Shown: piece after piece, positions 13,050 through 21,005 of the stretch
Layout: every line of letters starts with the position of its first letter
Position numbering within the stretch: position 1 is the first letter of the stretch
Source: a virus
Direction: 5' to 3' (one strand)
Length of the DNA stretch: 28,400 nt
Virus record (IMG/VR): IMGVR_UViG_3300030104_003898
Coordinates: 1 to 28,400 of that record
Notes under the pieces: generated by a model
Databases searched by the model: none
Seen by the model: the letters and a program-made list of their open reading frames with translations, nothing else
What the model was told of the DNA's origin: nothing
Position numbers and translations under genes: made by a program

Positions 13050-13057
13050 TATTTATG
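13050..13057 (-). promoter_or_regulatory. Late promoter for the gp48-gp53 unit
   Basis: Read on the minus strand, 13057 to 13050 is CATAAATA. The predicted start near 13044 leaves a 25-base leader containing AGGTAG before the gp48 ATG at 13018. The octamer includes the complement of the gp4 start codon. Confidence 0.6.
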
Positions 13058-13474
13058 AGATATCGAGGTAAGTATCGTGTTTCCAATCCCAGGAAATACA
13101 AAGGTGATCCACGAAACGTGGTATATCGCTCCTCATGGGAGTATAAATTTATGCAATGGTGTGAATCCAACGCTTCTGTAGAAGAGTGGGCAAGTGAAGA
13201 GATTATTATACCTTATATTAGTCCTGTTGATGGTAAACGACATAGATATTTTCCAGATTTCTACGTTAAAGTAGGAAATAAGAAATATATTGCAGAAGTT
13301 AAACCAGCATATCAAACCAAGGAACCTAAAACTCAAAAGCGAAACACTAAAAAATATATAAGTGAAGTTATGACTTATGCTGTAAATCAAGCAAAGTTTA
13401 AAGCAGCGACTGAGTTTTGTAAAGATCACGGTTGGGAATTTATGGTAGTCACAGAAAAGGAACTTAAAATCTAA
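13055..13474 (+). CDS. 4: Head completion protein gp4 (PD-(D/E)XK nuclease fold)
   Basis: The protein is 139 aa, close to T4 gp4 (150). The start YRGKYRVSNPRKYKGDPRNV and YRSSWEYKFMQW match the family. Restriction-nuclease-type residues are intact: E29, then PD with D68 in RYFPDFYVK, then E81-V-K83 in YIAEVKPAYQT. In T4, gp4 (also called gp50) finishes packaged heads so tails can join; the fold suggests it trims or guards the packaged DNA end. Its stop overlaps the gp54 start by one base. Confidence 0.87.
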   Translation: MRYRGKYRVSNPRKYKGDPRNVVYRSSWEYKFMQWCESNASVEEWASEEIIIPYISPVDGKRHRYFPDFYVKVGNKKYIAEVKPAYQTKEPKTQKRNTKKYISEVMTYAVNQAKFKAATEFCKDHGWEFMVVTEKELKI

Positions 13475-14364: not shown

Positions 14365-15072
14365 ATGGCATTACCTAAGATTAGTGTACCTAAGTACAAA
14401 TTGAAACTACCCTCAGACGGTAGAACTGTGAATTTTAGACCATTTCTTGTAAAGGAGGAGAAAGTCCTTCTCTTAGCTACTGAAGATGGTGATCAAAACG
14501 TTATTGTTTCTGCAATCAAAGATATCATCAAAGATTGTACAGACATTACAGATGTAGAAAAACTTGCTACATTTGATATCGAATTCGTTTTCTTGCAGAT
14601 TCGTACAAAATCTGTTGGTGAAAGTGTAGATGTCAATGTAACTTGTCCTGATGATAATGAAACTACTGTATCAGTTTCTATTCCTTTAGACGAAATTAAA
14701 GTCAAGAAAACTAGAGGTCATAAAAAGGATCTTAAAATTTCTGATGACGTTGCTATTACAATGGGATACCCCACTATTGAAACATTCGTTGCTATGAACT
14801 TTGGTGAGGGTGCTGAGGTTGACCAAGTTTTTGATATGGCAGCTAGTTGTGTAGAATCAATTAGTGATGCTAATCAAGTTTATGATTGTTCTACTGTTCC
14901 TAAAAAAGAACTAATAGAATTTTTTGATCAAATGAATAGCAAGCAATTCATGATGATACAGGAATTTTTTGAAAAAATGCCTAAATTAACTCATACTATT
15001 AAGATTACTAATCCTAATACTGGAGTTGAGAGTGAGGTTGTACTGGAGGGTCTAGCGAGTTTTTTCGAATAG
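14365..15072 (+). CDS. 26: Baseplate hub assembly protein gp26 / tape-measure chaperone
   Basis: The protein is 235 aa and fits the T4 baseplate hub family of gp26: LPKISVPKYKLKLPSDGRTV, FRPFLVKEEKVLLLA, and FVFLQIRTKSVGESV followed by VTCPDDN. The relatives assemble the hub around the tape measure and probably act as its chaperone. The last codons contain T-TTT-TTC (15060-15066) just before GAA TAG. A -1 slip there would replace the last residue with a 64-residue extension ending at 15260. The gene lies directly before two giant tape-measure-like genes, exactly where chaperone genes with frameshifts sit in other tailed phages. Confidence 0.85.
   Translation: MALPKISVPKYKLKLPSDGRTVNFRPFLVKEEKVLLLATEDGDQNVIVSAIKDIIKDCTDITDVEKLATFDIEFVFLQIRTKSVGESVDVNVTCPDDNETTVSVSIPLDEIKVKKTRGHKKDLKISDDVAITMGYPTIETFVAMNFGEGAEVDQVFDMAASCVESISDANQVYDCSTVPKKELIEFFDQMNSKQFMMIQEFFEKMPKLTHTIKITNPNTGVESEVVLEGLASFFE
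15045..15072 (+). promoter_or_regulatory. Predicted -1 programmed ribosomal frameshift signal
   Basis: The slippery heptamer TTTTTTC (15060-15066) is in the correct X-XXY-YYZ register with the gp26 frame. GGAGGG (15045-15050) lies nine bases upstream, at the spacing of the internal Shine-Dalgarno that stimulates -1 frameshifting in E. coli dnaX. The zero-frame stop TAG follows two codons after the heptamer begins its last codon. The -1 frame is open through to 15260. Confidence 0.75.
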
Positions 15073-15260
15073 CTCTTCTTCACACCAATCTACAGTCTTA
15101 TTATGAAGGAAACTTTTCCTTAATGCATCACCATAAATGGGATATCGCTCATATCGATAATCTGATGCCATGGGAAAAGGAGATTTATGTGAATATGTTA
15201 GTCAATTTCCTCAAAGAAGAGGAACGTAGAATGAAGGAGCAACAAGCATCTGGTGGCTAA
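15066..15260 (+). CDS. Frameshift extension of gp26 (gpT-like domain)
   Basis: After a -1 slip on TTT TTC, reading resumes at CGA (15066) and continues for 64 codons to TAA at 15258-15260, giving a fusion of about 298 aa. The extension includes LLHTNLQSYYEGNFSLMHHH, KWDIAHIDNLMPWEKEIYVN and a charged C-terminal helix. Its pattern (a His-rich stretch, then W..x..I..LMPWE.EIY) resembles short domains attached by frameshift to tape-measure chaperones. The final stop overlaps the GTG start of the first giant gene by eight bases. An alternative is independent translation from ATG 15123 (45 aa), with AAGGAA eleven bases upstream; this would be a split gp51-like gene. Confidence 0.7.
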   Translation, partial: RIALLHTNLQSYYEGNFSLMHHHKWDIAHIDNLMPWEKEIYVNMLVNFLKEEERRMKEQQASGG

Positions 15261-18132
15261 ATTACAAGTATACAAATTTGTAAATCCTGGAGTTTCAAAT
15301 CTGAAATCTCCAACAGTTGCTGCTGCTAGAAAACAAACCTTAGCGTTGAATAGACTAGGAGGTACAATTTCCTCAATAGGAACGCTTGTTAGTGATATAG
15401 AAAGGATTTCAATCCGTCAAATTAAGAATGATAAGTTAAGAGCAAAAGCAGAACGTCGTAGAGATAGAAGAGAATTAGATCAGGCTACAGAAGAAGCACT
15501 AGAAAATAAGAAGGCAGCAAAAAATAAAAAACCTAAATTAAGCAAAACATCTTTAAAGATTGCTAAGGGTGGTCTTAGTTGGATAGAAAAATTCTTAGCA
15601 CCGATTGGAAAATTTCTTGGTTTTATAGCTAGAATTGCTATCACAAAGGAAGTACTTGAATGGGTAGGAGATCCTGCTAATATTGAGAAGTTATCAGATT
15701 TTCTAGAGAAGACGCATTTTGTCTTTAAAAAACTATTTGGTTGGGCAGCAGGATTTACTGACAATATTCTAGAAGGATTTTCTTCTTTAACGGATCCTAA
15801 TGGGACATTTATACAAAGGTTAGGTGGTCTTGGATCTATAATGAAGGGTTTGATCGGGTTGAAATACCTGATGAACCCTTTCAGTATTATTACTGATATT
15901 CTAGCACTAGTCGATTTACTTACTGGTGGAGATGGTAAAGGCAAAGGTAAAGGTGGTAAAAATAGAAACAGAAATAGAAACAGAAATAGAAATTATAACC
16001 CAAATCAAAGACCAGGAAGCAAACCTGGTCGAAGATTAAGACCTAAAATCACTACAAGTGGAGGAAGATCAACAGGACCATTTAGAGGAATTAGAGAATT
16101 TTTAAGAAAGACTAAAAAATTCCTTGGGCAAAAACCTAATATAACTTTTGGTGGTAAAGGTAGTAAAGGTAATTGGTTTACTAAACTATTCAGAGGTAAA
16201 CCTGACATAACTACTGGATCAGGTGGTGCCGCAAAAGGTAATTGGTTTACTAAACTATTCAAGGGCAAACCTCAAGTTACTACAGGTACTGGTGGTGTAA
16301 AAGGTAATTGGTTTAAGAATTTATTCAAAAGCAAAGCTGATCCCACTAAGATAACACAAGGGGTGGGTGGTAAATCAAGTAATTTCTTTAGTAAAATATT
16401 CAGCGGTAGTAATGTAACACAGGGTCAAGGTGGACTTAAGTCTAATTTCTGGACTAAAGGTAGGAATCTTATAACAAAGTTTAAACCTGGTGGTCTTATA
16501 CGAGGTGGTGGTAACCTTATAAAAGGTGGTGTTGCTTATGCTGGTATTGACTGGGCAATTACTGAGATCGTAGACGCTGTTATTACTGATCCAATGGGAA
16601 GGTATGTTGATAAGAAACTTGAAAATGCTGTAGATGAAAGATTCTTAAAAACTGGTAGTGAAGCAACTGTAAAATACTATGAAAATGAATTAGAGGCACG
16701 TCAAAAACTAAGAGCAGAACAATCTTGGTGGGGAAAGTTAAATTTAGGGACACGAAATCAATTGGACAATGTGCAGCAAGAAAGGTTGCAACATCAACTT
16801 GATTATGCTAGATCTCTTACAGAAAATAGAGATATTAGTGGTTTATTTTCAAAATATGAAACCTCTAAATCACCGCAAAAGAAGAATGATAATTGGTTTA
16901 CTAATTTATTTAAGAATGACAAGGAGCAAGCAAACAAAGAGATAAAGAAAGAAGAAAAGAAGAAGTCAGGTAATTGGTTTAGTAATCTATTTGGTAAGAA
17001 GGAGGAGAAGAAAGAGAAGAAGAAGGAAGAAAAGAAGGGTAATTGGTTTAGTAATCTATTTGGTAGTAAGAAGGAAGAGAAAAAACAACCTGAAAAGAAG
17101 AAGACAAATTGGTGGTCTGGTCTTTTCTCTAAGAAAAAACCTGAAAAGAAGAAAAAGAAAGGTTGGTGGCCTTTTGAACAGGGTGGAGAACTTCCAGAAT
17201 ACGGCATTGGTGGTTTCTTCAGAAGTATAAAGAAAATTGGTAGTGGTATATGGAATGGTGTAACTAATGTTGTTAATAAAGTAACTAGTAATCCTATAAT
17301 AAGTACTGCATTATCATTCATTCCTGGTATGCAAATACCAATGGCAGTGATTAATGGTATTAGTTCTTTATCGCAGGGTAATATTATGGGTGCTCTTTCT
17401 GCTGGACTAAGTGGATTGGGTGCCTTTGCTAATATCAATACAGTTAATGCTATCAGTCAACCTCAATGGTTGCAGAACTTACGATTTAGTGGTTTTGGTC
17501 AAGGTTTGGCAAATATGTATCATAGCGGTGCTAATGCATGGAGTACCTTAACCAGTGGATTTAATAATTTCATGGGTTCCAAATGGGGACAAATTGGACA
17601 GCAAGTTCTGGGTGGCGACTATATGGGTGCTTTAAATACGTTTAATCCTAAGTGGGGTGGTATTGCTTCTGATATTATGAGTGGTAACTATGGTGGTGCT
17701 TTAAGTGCTTTCAATCCTGAAATGGGTGCGGCGGTTACAAAGGGGATGGCAATGATAGACTCATTTAGGCAAGATCCTATGGGTTTGATTAGTAATATTG
17801 CAGAACAGCAAGGTATGGGAGGACTTCTTAAGGCAGTTACTGGTTTATTTGGTGGTGGTGATAAAATTACTGCTATGACACAAATTGCAGCAGAGATGGG
17901 TATCGATCCTAAAGTGCTTGGTGCAGTAAAGTCAGCACATCAGCAAGCACTAACCGAGGGAGGTATCTCTGCTGAATATGCTATGGAACAAGCTATGGAG
18001 TTTATTCCTATTCCCACGATTATTGAAAAGATCGTTACTATTCCTCAAGCAGTAGCAATAAATACTGGGGGTGGTACCCAAATAATAGTAACTGCACCTA
18101 ATTCTTTACTTGAGAGAGCGAAGGGATCCTAA
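15253..18132 (+). CDS. Giant tail protein 1, probable tape measure (959 aa)
   Basis: The GTG start at 15253 overlaps the frameshift frame. Residues 1-225 form a helical module with hydrophobic stretches (FLGFIARIAITKEVLEW, WVGDPANIEKLSDF) shared with the next gene. Residues 227-250 are Gly/Lys then Asn/Arg repeats (NRNRNRNRN). Next come seven or eight copies of a NWF-like motif (at residues 306, 329, 351, 377, 546, 573, 596, with TNWWSGLF near 618) separated by Gly/Thr or Lys/Glu linkers. Residues 650-900 are hydrophobic and Gly/Ala-rich, with three GxxxGAL repeats. The location after gp26, the length, and the alternating helical and hydrophobic content fit the tape measure (T4 gp29 role). 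At 0.15 nm per helical residue it would span about 144 nm. No direct gp29 match was seen. Confidence 0.7.
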   Translation: MAKLQVYKFVNPGVSNLKSPTVAAARKQTLALNRLGGTISSIGTLVSDIERISIRQIKNDKLRAKAERRRDRRELDQATEEALENKKAAKNKKPKLSKTSLKIAKGGLSWIEKFLAPIGKFLGFIARIAITKEVLEWVGDPANIEKLSDFLEKTHFVFKKLFGWAAGFTDNILEGFSSLTDPNGTFIQRLGGLGSIMKGLIGLKYLMNPFSIITDILALVDLLTGGDGKGKGKGGKNRNRNRNRNRNYNPNQRPGSKPGRRLRPKITTSGGRSTGPFRGIREFLRKTKKFLGQKPNITFGGKGSKGNWFTKLFRGKPDITTGSGGAAKGNWFTKLFKGKPQVTTGTGGVKGNWFKNLFKSKADPTKITQGVGGKSSNFFSKIFSGSNVTQGQGGLKSNFWTKGRNLITKFKPGGLIRGGGNLIKGGVAYAGIDWAITEIVDAVITDPMGRYVDKKLENAVDERFLKTGSEATVKYYENELEARQKLRAEQSWWGKLNLGTRNQLDNVQQERLQHQLDYARSLTENRDISGLFSKYETSKSPQKKNDNWFTNLFKNDKEQANKEIKKEEKKKSGNWFSNLFGKKEEKKEKKKEEKKGNWFSNLFGSKKEEKKQPEKKKTNWWSGLFSKKKPEKKKKKGWWPFEQGGELPEYGIGGFFRSIKKIGSGIWNGVTNVVNKVTSNPIISTALSFIPGMQIPMAVINGISSLSQGNIMGALSAGLSGLGAFANINTVNAISQPQWLQNLRFSGFGQGLANMYHSGANAWSTLTSGFNNFMGSKWGQIGQQVLGGDYMGALNTFNPKWGGIASDIMSGNYGGALSAFNPEMGAAVTKGMAMIDSFRQDPMGLISNIAEQQGMGGLLKAVTGLFGGGDKITAMTQIAAEMGIDPKVLGAVKSAHQQALTEGGISAEYAMEQAMEFIPIPTIIEKIVTIPQAVAINTGGGTQIIVTAPNSLLERAKGS
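15961..15992 (+). repeat. 12-bp tandem repeat encoding Asn-Arg
   Basis: The unit AATAGAAACAGA recurs about two and a half times in frame, following a Gly-Lys repeat. It encodes alternating Asn and Arg in the first giant tail protein and is a likely site of slippage length variation. Confidence 0.8.
16168..17060 (+). repeat. Dispersed repeats encoding the GNWFxxLF motif
   Basis: GGTAATTGGTT is found at 16168, 16237, 16303, 16969 and 17038, with a near copy at 16888. The first two copies extend to a shared 25-base match. Two further copies occur in the next gene at 19101 and 19185. Each encodes G-N-W-(F/L)-x-x-L-F. Identity at DNA level suggests recent amplification or gene conversion. Confidence 0.8.
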
Positions 18133-21005
18133 TGGCAACTATAAAAAAGAATTCAAAAATTAATTTCTATAAATTTGTACAAGTAAAGGTACCTAATGTT
18201 AGTGCAAAAACGAAAATGGAGTTGAAACCCATTATTTCGAATACTGCCGCTATCAATAATTTGGGTGCAACTGTAAACTCTATTGCAGTAATCGTTAAAG
18301 ATTTTAAAAAGATTCAACTTGAAAAGTTAGTACTTTCAAGGAAATCTTTAAAGGATTTTGAAGCAACATTTACAAAAACAAAAAAGAGGAAACCTTTTGC
18401 TGGATTTAGTCCTGCTGCTTTAGTAAAAAAACCTAATTGGTTAGAAGGTCTATTTAAGATGTTGAGTGGACTGATTAAAGCAGCGATTATTATTCCTGCT
18501 TTGAAATGGTTATCTGATCCTGCGAACAGAGAAAAAATATCAAGGATGATCGAAACCCTTTCTAAGTTGCTAACGTTCATCTTTAAAGTCGCAGAATTTG
18601 GTGTTGTTAATACTATTGAAGGATTATATAAGTTACTATCAGATACCTCTGCTCCTTGGGAAAGAATAGGAGGACTTGTACAAGGATTAACTGGACTTGG
18701 AACTTTATTGTTAGGTCTTCGTTGGTTGAGTAATCCAACTAGAATTATTACAGATTTTGGTAATGTACTCATCTTCCTTCATAATAATCTAATTAGAGGT
18801 AGAAGGGGATTACTAGGTAGAGCTGGAGCACTTGGATTAATTGCAGCAACTGCTTATGGTGGATATAAACTTTATGAATACATGAAGGAAGATGGAAGGG
18901 GTGGAAGACCAGATCCAAGAGATGACGGGTCTGAAGAATATGCAGGAGTTGATCAAGCAAGTATAACCTTAGGTGATAGTGGAAACGTAACCCTTGATAA
19001 GGATGGTAGTCTCACAGGTGCGTTAGACTTTACTTTAGGTGAGAATGTTAATATCCAAATAAATACGGATACTGATATAACTCCAGATGATAAGAAGGAA
19101 GGTAATTGGTTAACTAATCTATTCAAAATAGGGAACAGTATCTCTTCTACGGATACTAATACAACTTCAGATGATATGTCTGAAGGTAATTGGTTAACTA
19201 ATCTATTCAAATCTACTGGAGGTTTATTACCTTCATTTGCACAAGGAGGATGGATTAGTGGACCACAATCAGGATATGGAGTTTCATTGGATGGAGGGAG
19301 ATCCACTTCGTTCATCGGACATGGAACTGAGTACGTTGCTAGAAAGAGCGATGGGGGAGCTTTCATCGTTCCTTTTGATACTCCTGGAACAAAAACACAA
19401 CCAAACCTAACAGAAAGGAGGATAAATGAGGGTAAGAGACTAGGATTTGACTTAGATGGTTTTAGTAAAGGAGGAACTTTACCAAAAGATATGATACTTT
19501 CGCAAAAAGCTGCATTTGATCATGTATATAATCTAGCAAAACTAGCGGGAGGAGCAAAATACCCTGAAATTGTTGCTGCTCAGGCAATGCACGAATCAAA
19601 CTATCTAGATCCTAGGATTAATAGTGTTTATAATGCCACAAACAGAACTAATGCTTTCGGTCAAACTGGTGACAGAGGATTTGGTACTATTATTAGAAAG
19701 GGTTTTAAAGTAGGTTGGTCAAAATATGACACTCTATCCCGTGCAGTAGGCGATAATATTAAACTTTGGCATGATGTTACTAATCATCCTGGAAACTATA
19801 ATGCTTTTGGTAATATTTTAGATGGTATTGCTTCAGTTGCACCAGCATATTCACCCAATGCAGATCCTGAAAATATTAAAAAAGGATATACTACTGACAA
19901 GTATAGTGAAGGAATGATCAGAGCATTAAAAGTTGGTGGATTTGATATTAGTAATATGAAAGATAAAACTCCTAAGTCTTCATCTAATAGTGGTTCGGGA
20001 AGAAGACAGACTGGTAATATCTTCTCAAAATTTATGGGTGGTATTAAGAGTATATTTGGTAAAACAGATGAGAGTGATAAGAAGACAAAAACACAAAATA
20101 AAGTAAAGGCTGTCAAACCCGCATCACATCCTGATACAGGTTCTGGATTTACTGTTGCAGGAACAAGGGATCAAAGTGGTAGACCTTTAGTATTCTCAGA
20201 ACCAGCAGCACAAATGTTTGCTGCAGCAATGAGAGATTCTGGAATCGACTTAGGATCATTTGTTGCAAGTTCTGGTAGAAGTAAATCTAAGAACAAGGAA
20301 ATTGGTGGAGATCCTGAGTCATATCATCTATATGGTGAAGCACTTGATATTAATGGTGAAGGATATCAATGGTTGAAAGCAAATGGTAAACGTTTTGGTT
20401 GGCAATATGTTTACAACCATAATCCTGATAGTGCTCACTTTAAGTATGTTGGTGCTAAATCAGGTACTACACCGATTTTATCAGAAGCTGGTAAAGAATA
20501 TGCTGGTGGTAATAGTCTTCATGGACATATAGGTGAAGGTGCTCGTGAGGGTTCTCGTGGAGATAGTGGTAAAGGGACAAATAAACAAGGATCTCTAGAA
20601 TCACAAAAAATGGGAATGGGAAATCTATTTGGAAACCAAGAGAGGGGTGGTGGACAGAAACCAGGAGATAACAAAATCGCATCAGGTAGTGACACCAGGT
20701 CAGCTCAATTCCAACAAGCAAGGCAACAGAAAAGACTAGAGCAACAGACAAAAGAAAGAAATAATGCACGTCGTCAGGTAGCTGAGAGAAGTCAAGAAAT
20801 GATTAAGGAAGTTATGGCAGCAGTTGCTCACCAAAATGGGGTAAATACTCAAGCAATCCAAGCAGCACAAACAGCGTTAGCATCAGTGGCAGGACAAACA
20901 GGTGGAGGTAATCCGACATTGCTTCCAAGTAGTTCTGGTGGAGTCGGATCTATCGCATCTACTTTACAATCTAACCTTAATCCTTTGAGAGGTTTAGTCA
21001 GATGA
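18132..21005 (+). CDS. Giant tail protein 2 with two peptidoglycan hydrolase domains (957 aa)
   Basis: Residues 1-225 are paralogous to giant protein 1 (YKFV, LGATVNSIAVIVKD, WLSDPANREKIS near 126). GNWLTNLF occurs at 324 and 352. Residues 454-600 look like a glucosaminidase (GH73/FlgJ-type) or related lysozyme-fold domain: the putative catalytic Glu is E488 in AQAMHESNY, followed by NAFGQTGDRGFG. Residues 680-775 are an M15 zinc peptidase: H732-x6-D739 in SYHLYGEALD, then D766-x2-H769 in PDSAHFKYVG, as in T5 endolysin. The C-terminus is a Gln/Arg/Lys-rich coiled coil. It probably travels in the tail and cuts glycan and peptide bonds of host murein during DNA entry. The ATG overlaps the upstream stop by one base. 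Confidence 0.78.
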   Translation: MATIKKNSKINFYKFVQVKVPNVSAKTKMELKPIISNTAAINNLGATVNSIAVIVKDFKKIQLEKLVLSRKSLKDFEATFTKTKKRKPFAGFSPAALVKKPNWLEGLFKMLSGLIKAAIIIPALKWLSDPANREKISRMIETLSKLLTFIFKVAEFGVVNTIEGLYKLLSDTSAPWERIGGLVQGLTGLGTLLLGLRWLSNPTRIITDFGNVLIFLHNNLIRGRRGLLGRAGALGLIAATAYGGYKLYEYMKEDGRGGRPDPRDDGSEEYAGVDQASITLGDSGNVTLDKDGSLTGALDFTLGENVNIQINTDTDITPDDKKEGNWLTNLFKIGNSISSTDTNTTSDDMSEGNWLTNLFKSTGGLLPSFAQGGWISGPQSGYGVSLDGGRSTSFIGHGTEYVARKSDGGAFIVPFDTPGTKTQPNLTERRINEGKRLGFDLDGFSKGGTLPKDMILSQKAAFDHVYNLAKLAGGAKYPEIVAAQAMHESNYLDPRINSVYNATNRTNAFGQTGDRGFGTIIRKGFKVGWSKYDTLSRAVGDNIKLWHDVTNHPGNYNAFGNILDGIASVAPAYSPNADPENIKKGYTTDKYSEGMIRALKVGGFDISNMKDKTPKSSSNSGSGRRQTGNIFSKFMGGIKSIFGKTDESDKKTKTQNKVKAVKPASHPDTGSGFTVAGTRDQSGRPLVFSEPAAQMFAAAMRDSGIDLGSFVASSGRSKSKNKEIGGDPESYHLYGEALDINGEGYQWLKANGKRFGWQYVYNHNPDSAHFKYVGAKSGTTPILSEAGKEYAGGNSLHGHIGEGAREGSRGDSGKGTNKQGSLESQKMGMGNLFGNQERGGGQKPGDNKIASGSDTRSAQFQQARQQKRLEQQTKERNNARRQVAERSQEMIKEVMAAVAHQNGVNTQAIQAAQTALASVAGQTGGGNPTLLPSSSGGVGSIASTLQSNLNPLRGLVR

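Follow-up and report, generated by a model that had tools for sequence, protein, structure and literature searches.

Sequence evidence for a probable lambda G/GT-type, frameshifted tail assembly chaperone in a cyanobacterial T4-like phage

The window analyzed here is the whole stretch of 28,400 nt at positions 1–28,400 of IMG/VR record IMGVR_UViG_3300030104_003898, a genome fragment. It encodes gp26, a lambda gpG-like short tail assembly chaperone (TAC-N), whose 0-frame 3' end reads GGT CTA GCG AGT TTT TTC GAA TAG. This end contains a slippery heptamer preceded by a Shine–Dalgarno (SD)-like element, and it is followed by a -1 frame extension (TAC-C) leading into a giant gene (Table 1). Just past the TGA at 15033–15035, the -1 frame opens and continues to its terminal TAA; slippage at the heptamer would join gp26 to the extension at F234–R235, giving 234 + 64 = 298 amino acids. 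A previous sequence-only reading of this DNA had placed a T-TTT-TTC heptamer in the correct register near the gp26 TAG, GGAGGG nine bases 5' of it, and a 64-codon open -1 frame ending eight bases within the GTG-started next gene. All three proved exact to the base; the products, estimated at about 235 and 298 amino acids, would have exactly these lengths.

Table 1. Features of the gp26 locus in the window.
Feature	Position	Strand	Details
gp26 (TAC-N, lambda gpG-like short chaperone)	14365–15072	+	235 amino acids; stop TAG 15070–15072
SD-like element GGAGGG (candidate stimulator)	15045–15050	+	Nine bases upstream of the heptamer
Slippery heptamer T TTT TTC	15060–15066	+	P-site TTT 15061–15063; A-site TTC 15064–15066
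-1 frame extension (TAC-C; gp51 C-terminal domain)	15066–15260	+	64 codons, R235 to G298, then TAA 15258–15260
Next gene, probable tape measure protein	15253–18132	+	959 amino acids; GTG start at 15253

The rarity of the heptamer within the window was rejected as evidence, since TTTTTTC occurs 13 times against 13.4 expected; the case therefore rests on comparison with relatives. Related loci were gathered from viral contigs by means of the extension and, separately, by means of gp26 proteins of other groups, and annotated phages were added. The resulting set comprised 258 loci with a readable gp26 stop, more than 150 of which were retrieved via the gp26 sequence alone and not via the extension; T4 and Ackermannviridae were not in the set. 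The sequence-only reading had named an alignment of other cyanomyoviruses as a check on the conservation of TTTTTTC and the open -1 frame. An in-frame T TTT TTN no more than three codons from the gp26 stop was found in 258 of the 258 loci, and the -1 frame was likewise open in all of them, over 57–68 residues counted from the slip. The last base of the heptamer was C in 203 loci, A in 28, T in 25, and G in 2. The motif was retained in all 43 lineages separated at less than 70% protein identity, which belong to several families; it was found in Kyanoviridae, outlying Straboviridae, Emdodecavirus, Pootjesviridae, and Menderavirus.

The conserved motif might be a by-product of a conserved Phe-Phe pair, with the open frame arising by chance or from a frameshift error in the assembly. 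The C-terminal Phe-Phe is indeed conserved among gp26 proteins, and TTTTTTC is common in the AT-rich sequence of the window. However, the other Phe-Phe or Phe-Leu pairs of the same genes were encoded as T TTT TTN in only 3 of 134 cases, and the probability of the T choices, given the amino acids and codon usage, was log10 P of about -16.6 (uncorrected for phylogeny). The P-site codon was TTT in 198 of 198 distinct sequences, with a synonymous difference of 0 compared with a median of 0.46 over 53 control codons. The A-site residue was Phe or Leu among the relatives while the run of six T's remained unchanged, which indicates a constraint on the nucleotides and not on the amino acids only. Hundreds of independent assemblies share this layout. 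The by-product explanation, contradicted by the conservation in all 258 loci, the control pairs, and the invariant P-site TTT, is hardly conceivable; on this comparative evidence, the frameshift signal is real and deeply conserved.

In 37 of the 43 lineages, an SD-like tetramer lay 4–22 bases 5' of the P-site codon, compared with 15% of control windows. The Glu codon at the SD-like site was GAG in 21 of 34 cases versus 26% overall (P 9e-6). The element is thus enriched and conserved across distant T4-like phages, in line with the stimulatory role assigned to it in the sequence-only reading, and GGAGGG probably stimulates frameshifting in the window. These data also bear on transcriptional slippage, instead of ribosomal slippage, as the source of the fusion. 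The motif is a homopolymer run, which speaks for such a process, but six T's are short for slippage by bacterial RNA polymerase. Moreover, the run stands in the exact heptamer register with the SD-like element upstream, and the third base of the A-site codon is C in most loci, so that transcriptional slippage appears very improbable.

The -1 frame is itself a conserved protein over most of its length: it matched PHROG 634, 'baseplate hub assembly catalyst' (E 6e-31), and the match starts at its first residue. A tblastn search with the extension retrieved 540 phage records at an E value of 0.01; cyanophages made up the majority, and Vibrio, Sinorhizobium, and other phages were also represented. 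Substitutions in the -1 frame were of the coding type, with 67–69% at third positions; between the gp26 stop and the first possible start the figure was 67%, as in gp26. This pattern begins right after the gp26 stop, before the first possible start, and the -1 frame residues are conserved from the slip codon onward.

In public records, this frame is treated as an independent small gene (gp51) with its own start. Annotated gp51 open reading frames (ORFs) of public T4-like phage genomes have about 31–61 amino acids with inconsistent start codons, or are missed altogether. The extension appears as a separate small ORF of 31 amino acids in P-SSM7, 45 in Syn33, and 57 in S-PM2, is unannotated in P-RSM1 and ACG-2014d, and is joined to gp26 in none of these records. 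An independent gene would agree with these annotations and with the ATG found at codon +3 or +4 or overlapping the gp26 stop in some relatives; about half of the relatives have a possible start soon past the slip. In the window, the first ATG, GTG, or TTG of the -1 frame past the slip is the ATG at 15123, from which 45 amino acids would be translated. However, no start codon was found in the -1 frame 5' of the slip in any of the 258 loci, and 137 of them, the window included, have no ATG, GTG, or TTG before codon +12, even though the preceding stretch is conserved -1 coding sequence. The annotated starts vary among relatives, the invariant heptamer would be left unexplained, and T4 has the fused form (see below). 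An independent gene is accordingly very unlikely. The -1 extension is misannotated in every relative inspected, and its reassignment corrects a systematic error, since gp51 is listed as a tiny separate gene or omitted in hundreds of T4-like phage genomes.

Regarding gp26, the protein matched the Pfam family T4_baseplate (PF12322, E 1e-76) and PHROG 150. Its AlphaFold2 model had a predicted local distance difference test (pLDDT) value of 88. The most probable PDB match in a Foldseek search of this model was the HK97 tail assembly chaperone (2ob9; probability 0.77, with an E value of 0.88 and TMt of 0.42), which may be taken as a hint only, while a sequence search of solved structures with gp26 revealed no real relative. 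In T4, genes 26 and 51 lie on opposite strands. T4 gp26 is homologous to the N part of the fusion (E 9e-27) and has neither the heptamer nor the -1 extension. T4 gp51, of 249 amino acids, matched PHROG 150 along the entire protein, PHROG 634 in its terminal part, and Pfam T4_baseplate. It was colinear with the profile of the frameshift fusion straight through the junction; comparisons with separate profiles were also made. Judged by these profiles, T4 gp51 is a gp26 paralogue with an extension-type tail fused in frame, and the -1 extension is homologous to the gp51 C-terminus. T4 gp28 was considered as a third paralogue and rejected (profile E 0.3). Because T4 gp51 aligns across the junction, T4 has as a separate in-frame gene what the phage of the window would make by frameshifting, and this counterpart strongly suggests that the fusion is a functional product. 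No second gp26-like copy was found in the 28.4-kb record, which is a fragment; the T4-type arrangement of two genes was not encountered there. The earlier proposal that the fusion replaces a separate gp51-like gene needs one refinement: the extension does not stand in for an unrelated protein but corresponds to the C-terminal part of gp51 itself, and T4 represents the two-gene lineage.

Taken together, the locus very probably encodes a lambda G/GT-type tail assembly chaperone of a cyanobacterial T4-like phage, consisting of gp26 and a minor 298-residue gp26–gp51 fusion. The sequence-only reading had arrived at the same kind of chaperone, and the slip site, SD-like element, open -1 frame, and chaperone-type gene on which it was built recur in distant T4-like phages. 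Most ribosomes would terminate at the TAG at 15070, releasing gp26. A minority would pause with the anti-SD sequence paired with GGAGGG, the two tRNA-Phe would slip from TTT TTC to TTT TTT at 15060–15066, and translation would proceed in the -1 frame to the TAA at 15258, yielding the fusion (TAC-NC). The lambda system suggests by analogy that gp26 coats the tape measure protein, while tube subunits would be recruited through the C-terminal domain, so that the long form would link the tape measure to the tube protein (PMC5009743). Frameshifting itself, its efficiency, and these binding partners are predictions.

Several observations weigh against the frameshifted chaperone. Its support is drawn from sequence and none of it from protein. 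The heptamer is not universal, since Ackermannviridae retain the -1 extension without it. No stable downstream RNA fold was detected within 40 nt of the window's slip site. The 959-residue product of the window's next gene carries the PHROG label 'endolysin' and has no Pfam and no tape-measure match. Finally, an ATG lies at or just after the gp26 stop in some relatives (TAATG in R11Z, TGATG in RHph_I9), where translation of the -1 frame could begin independently. In lineages of this kind, both routes might operate, with a frameshift fusion and, in addition, a free C-terminal domain produced by termination–reinitiation. This would fit the retention of the heptamer despite the ATG after the stop in R11Z, D527, S-PM2, and P-SSM2; however, the lambda T domain acts as part of gpGT (PMC5009743), and the window has no such ATG, so that the dual route does not apply there. 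We regard it as unlikely, though deserving some weight.

Downstream structure was also considered in the 43 relatives and rejected as an element: mean z values of -0.9 to -1.6, versus -0.4 in controls, were too weak and variable. An Rfam search of the window gave no match.

As for the origin of the frameshift, the chances are about even that T TTT TTN frameshifting is ancestral for the long tail chaperone of the T4 superfamily, that the T4 lineage replaced it by duplication and in-frame fusion (gene 51), and that Ackermannviridae have a different, undescribed slip site. On that reading, the 'catalyst' gp51 of old would be a hard-wired form of the frameshift product, and the widely annotated small 'gp51' genes would not be separate genes. 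Ackermannviridae (Kuttervirus) and two phages with the same layout, Klebsiella TTM-TASP117 and Vibrio K483, may use another slip site or mechanism.

A gp26-like gene with a conserved -1 extension (..MPWHL..), unannotated or mostly so, was observed in Kuttervirus, TTM-TASP117, and K483. The site there is NTT TTC just 5' of the stop, with no T TTT TTN. The loci examined for the MPWHL-type extension were L098 (1800–2800), L262 (1300–2300), L265 (1510–2510), and L264 (1294–2290).

The gene following the extension probably encodes the tape measure protein, as indicated by gene order, position, size, and relatives. The cognate next genes of Vibrio phage R11Z and Sinorhizobium phage phiM19 matched tape-measure PHROGs. 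The proposed position of the chaperone directly before the tape measure gene is likely from gene order and from these cognates, but the window's own gene lacks a tape-measure match and has a paralogue right after it. These giant genes, at 15253–18132 (959 amino acids) and 18132–21005 (957 amino acids), are thus adjacent paralogues (BLASTP 4e-15). NW(F/L)xxLF motifs are repeated in both, in part as tandem repeats of 69 bases. For the second gene, a match to an M15 peptidase was obtained; either of the pair could be the tape measure gene. Upstream, at 13055–13474, a homologue of gp4 (head completion) was found; in Ochrobactrum phage OC, one of the relatives, it goes by the name of TnsA-like endonuclease.

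The tail assembly chaperones of T4-like phages were reportedly assigned by Vladimirov, Gautam and Davidson (2022, Virology 566:9; pmid 34826709), as their title and citing papers have it, and their abstract is said to describe frameshifting as conserved in several T4-like groups. The chaperones are of the same family as here, with gp26 as TAC-N and gp51-type sequence as TAC-C, while the heptamer conservation counts given above are independent of that work. According to PMC12846349, the TAC-N genes of T4-like phages have poly-T slippery sites, and PMC10885494 describes separate short and fused chaperone genes in some T4-like phages. A frameshifted chaperone in T4-like phages is thus a published proposal and no new idea, and the locus of the window is a well-supported case of it. 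Our literature searches found no cyanophage-specific frameshift reports.

The slip site resembles that of Escherichia coli dnaX in its X XXY YYZ heptamer and upstream SD-like stimulator. Unlike dnaX, for which the role of the SD sequence in frameshifting has been described (PMC4066793), the window has no strong downstream stem-loop close to the site. TTTTTTC with the SD-like GGAGGG offers a site at which to test how the two tail-length chaperones are kept in proportion in cyanophages. The N part of the window chaperone is larger than lambda gpG. No sequence homology between the window chaperone and lambda gpG/gpGT was tested or found, and the slip site T TTT TTC with its SD-like element differs from lambda's own slip sequence; a minor fusion would be common to both systems (PMC5009743). 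T4 was listed as the exception to conserved G/GT frameshifting in a 2016 review (PMC5009743). Its gp26 is homologous to the N part of the window chaperone and its gp51 to the whole fusion, but in T4 each of the two forms has a gene of its own, the genes being divergently oriented and lacking a slip site, in contrast to the single, probably frameshifted locus of the window. Some lineages would thus obtain the protein pair through frameshifting, and another from two genes.
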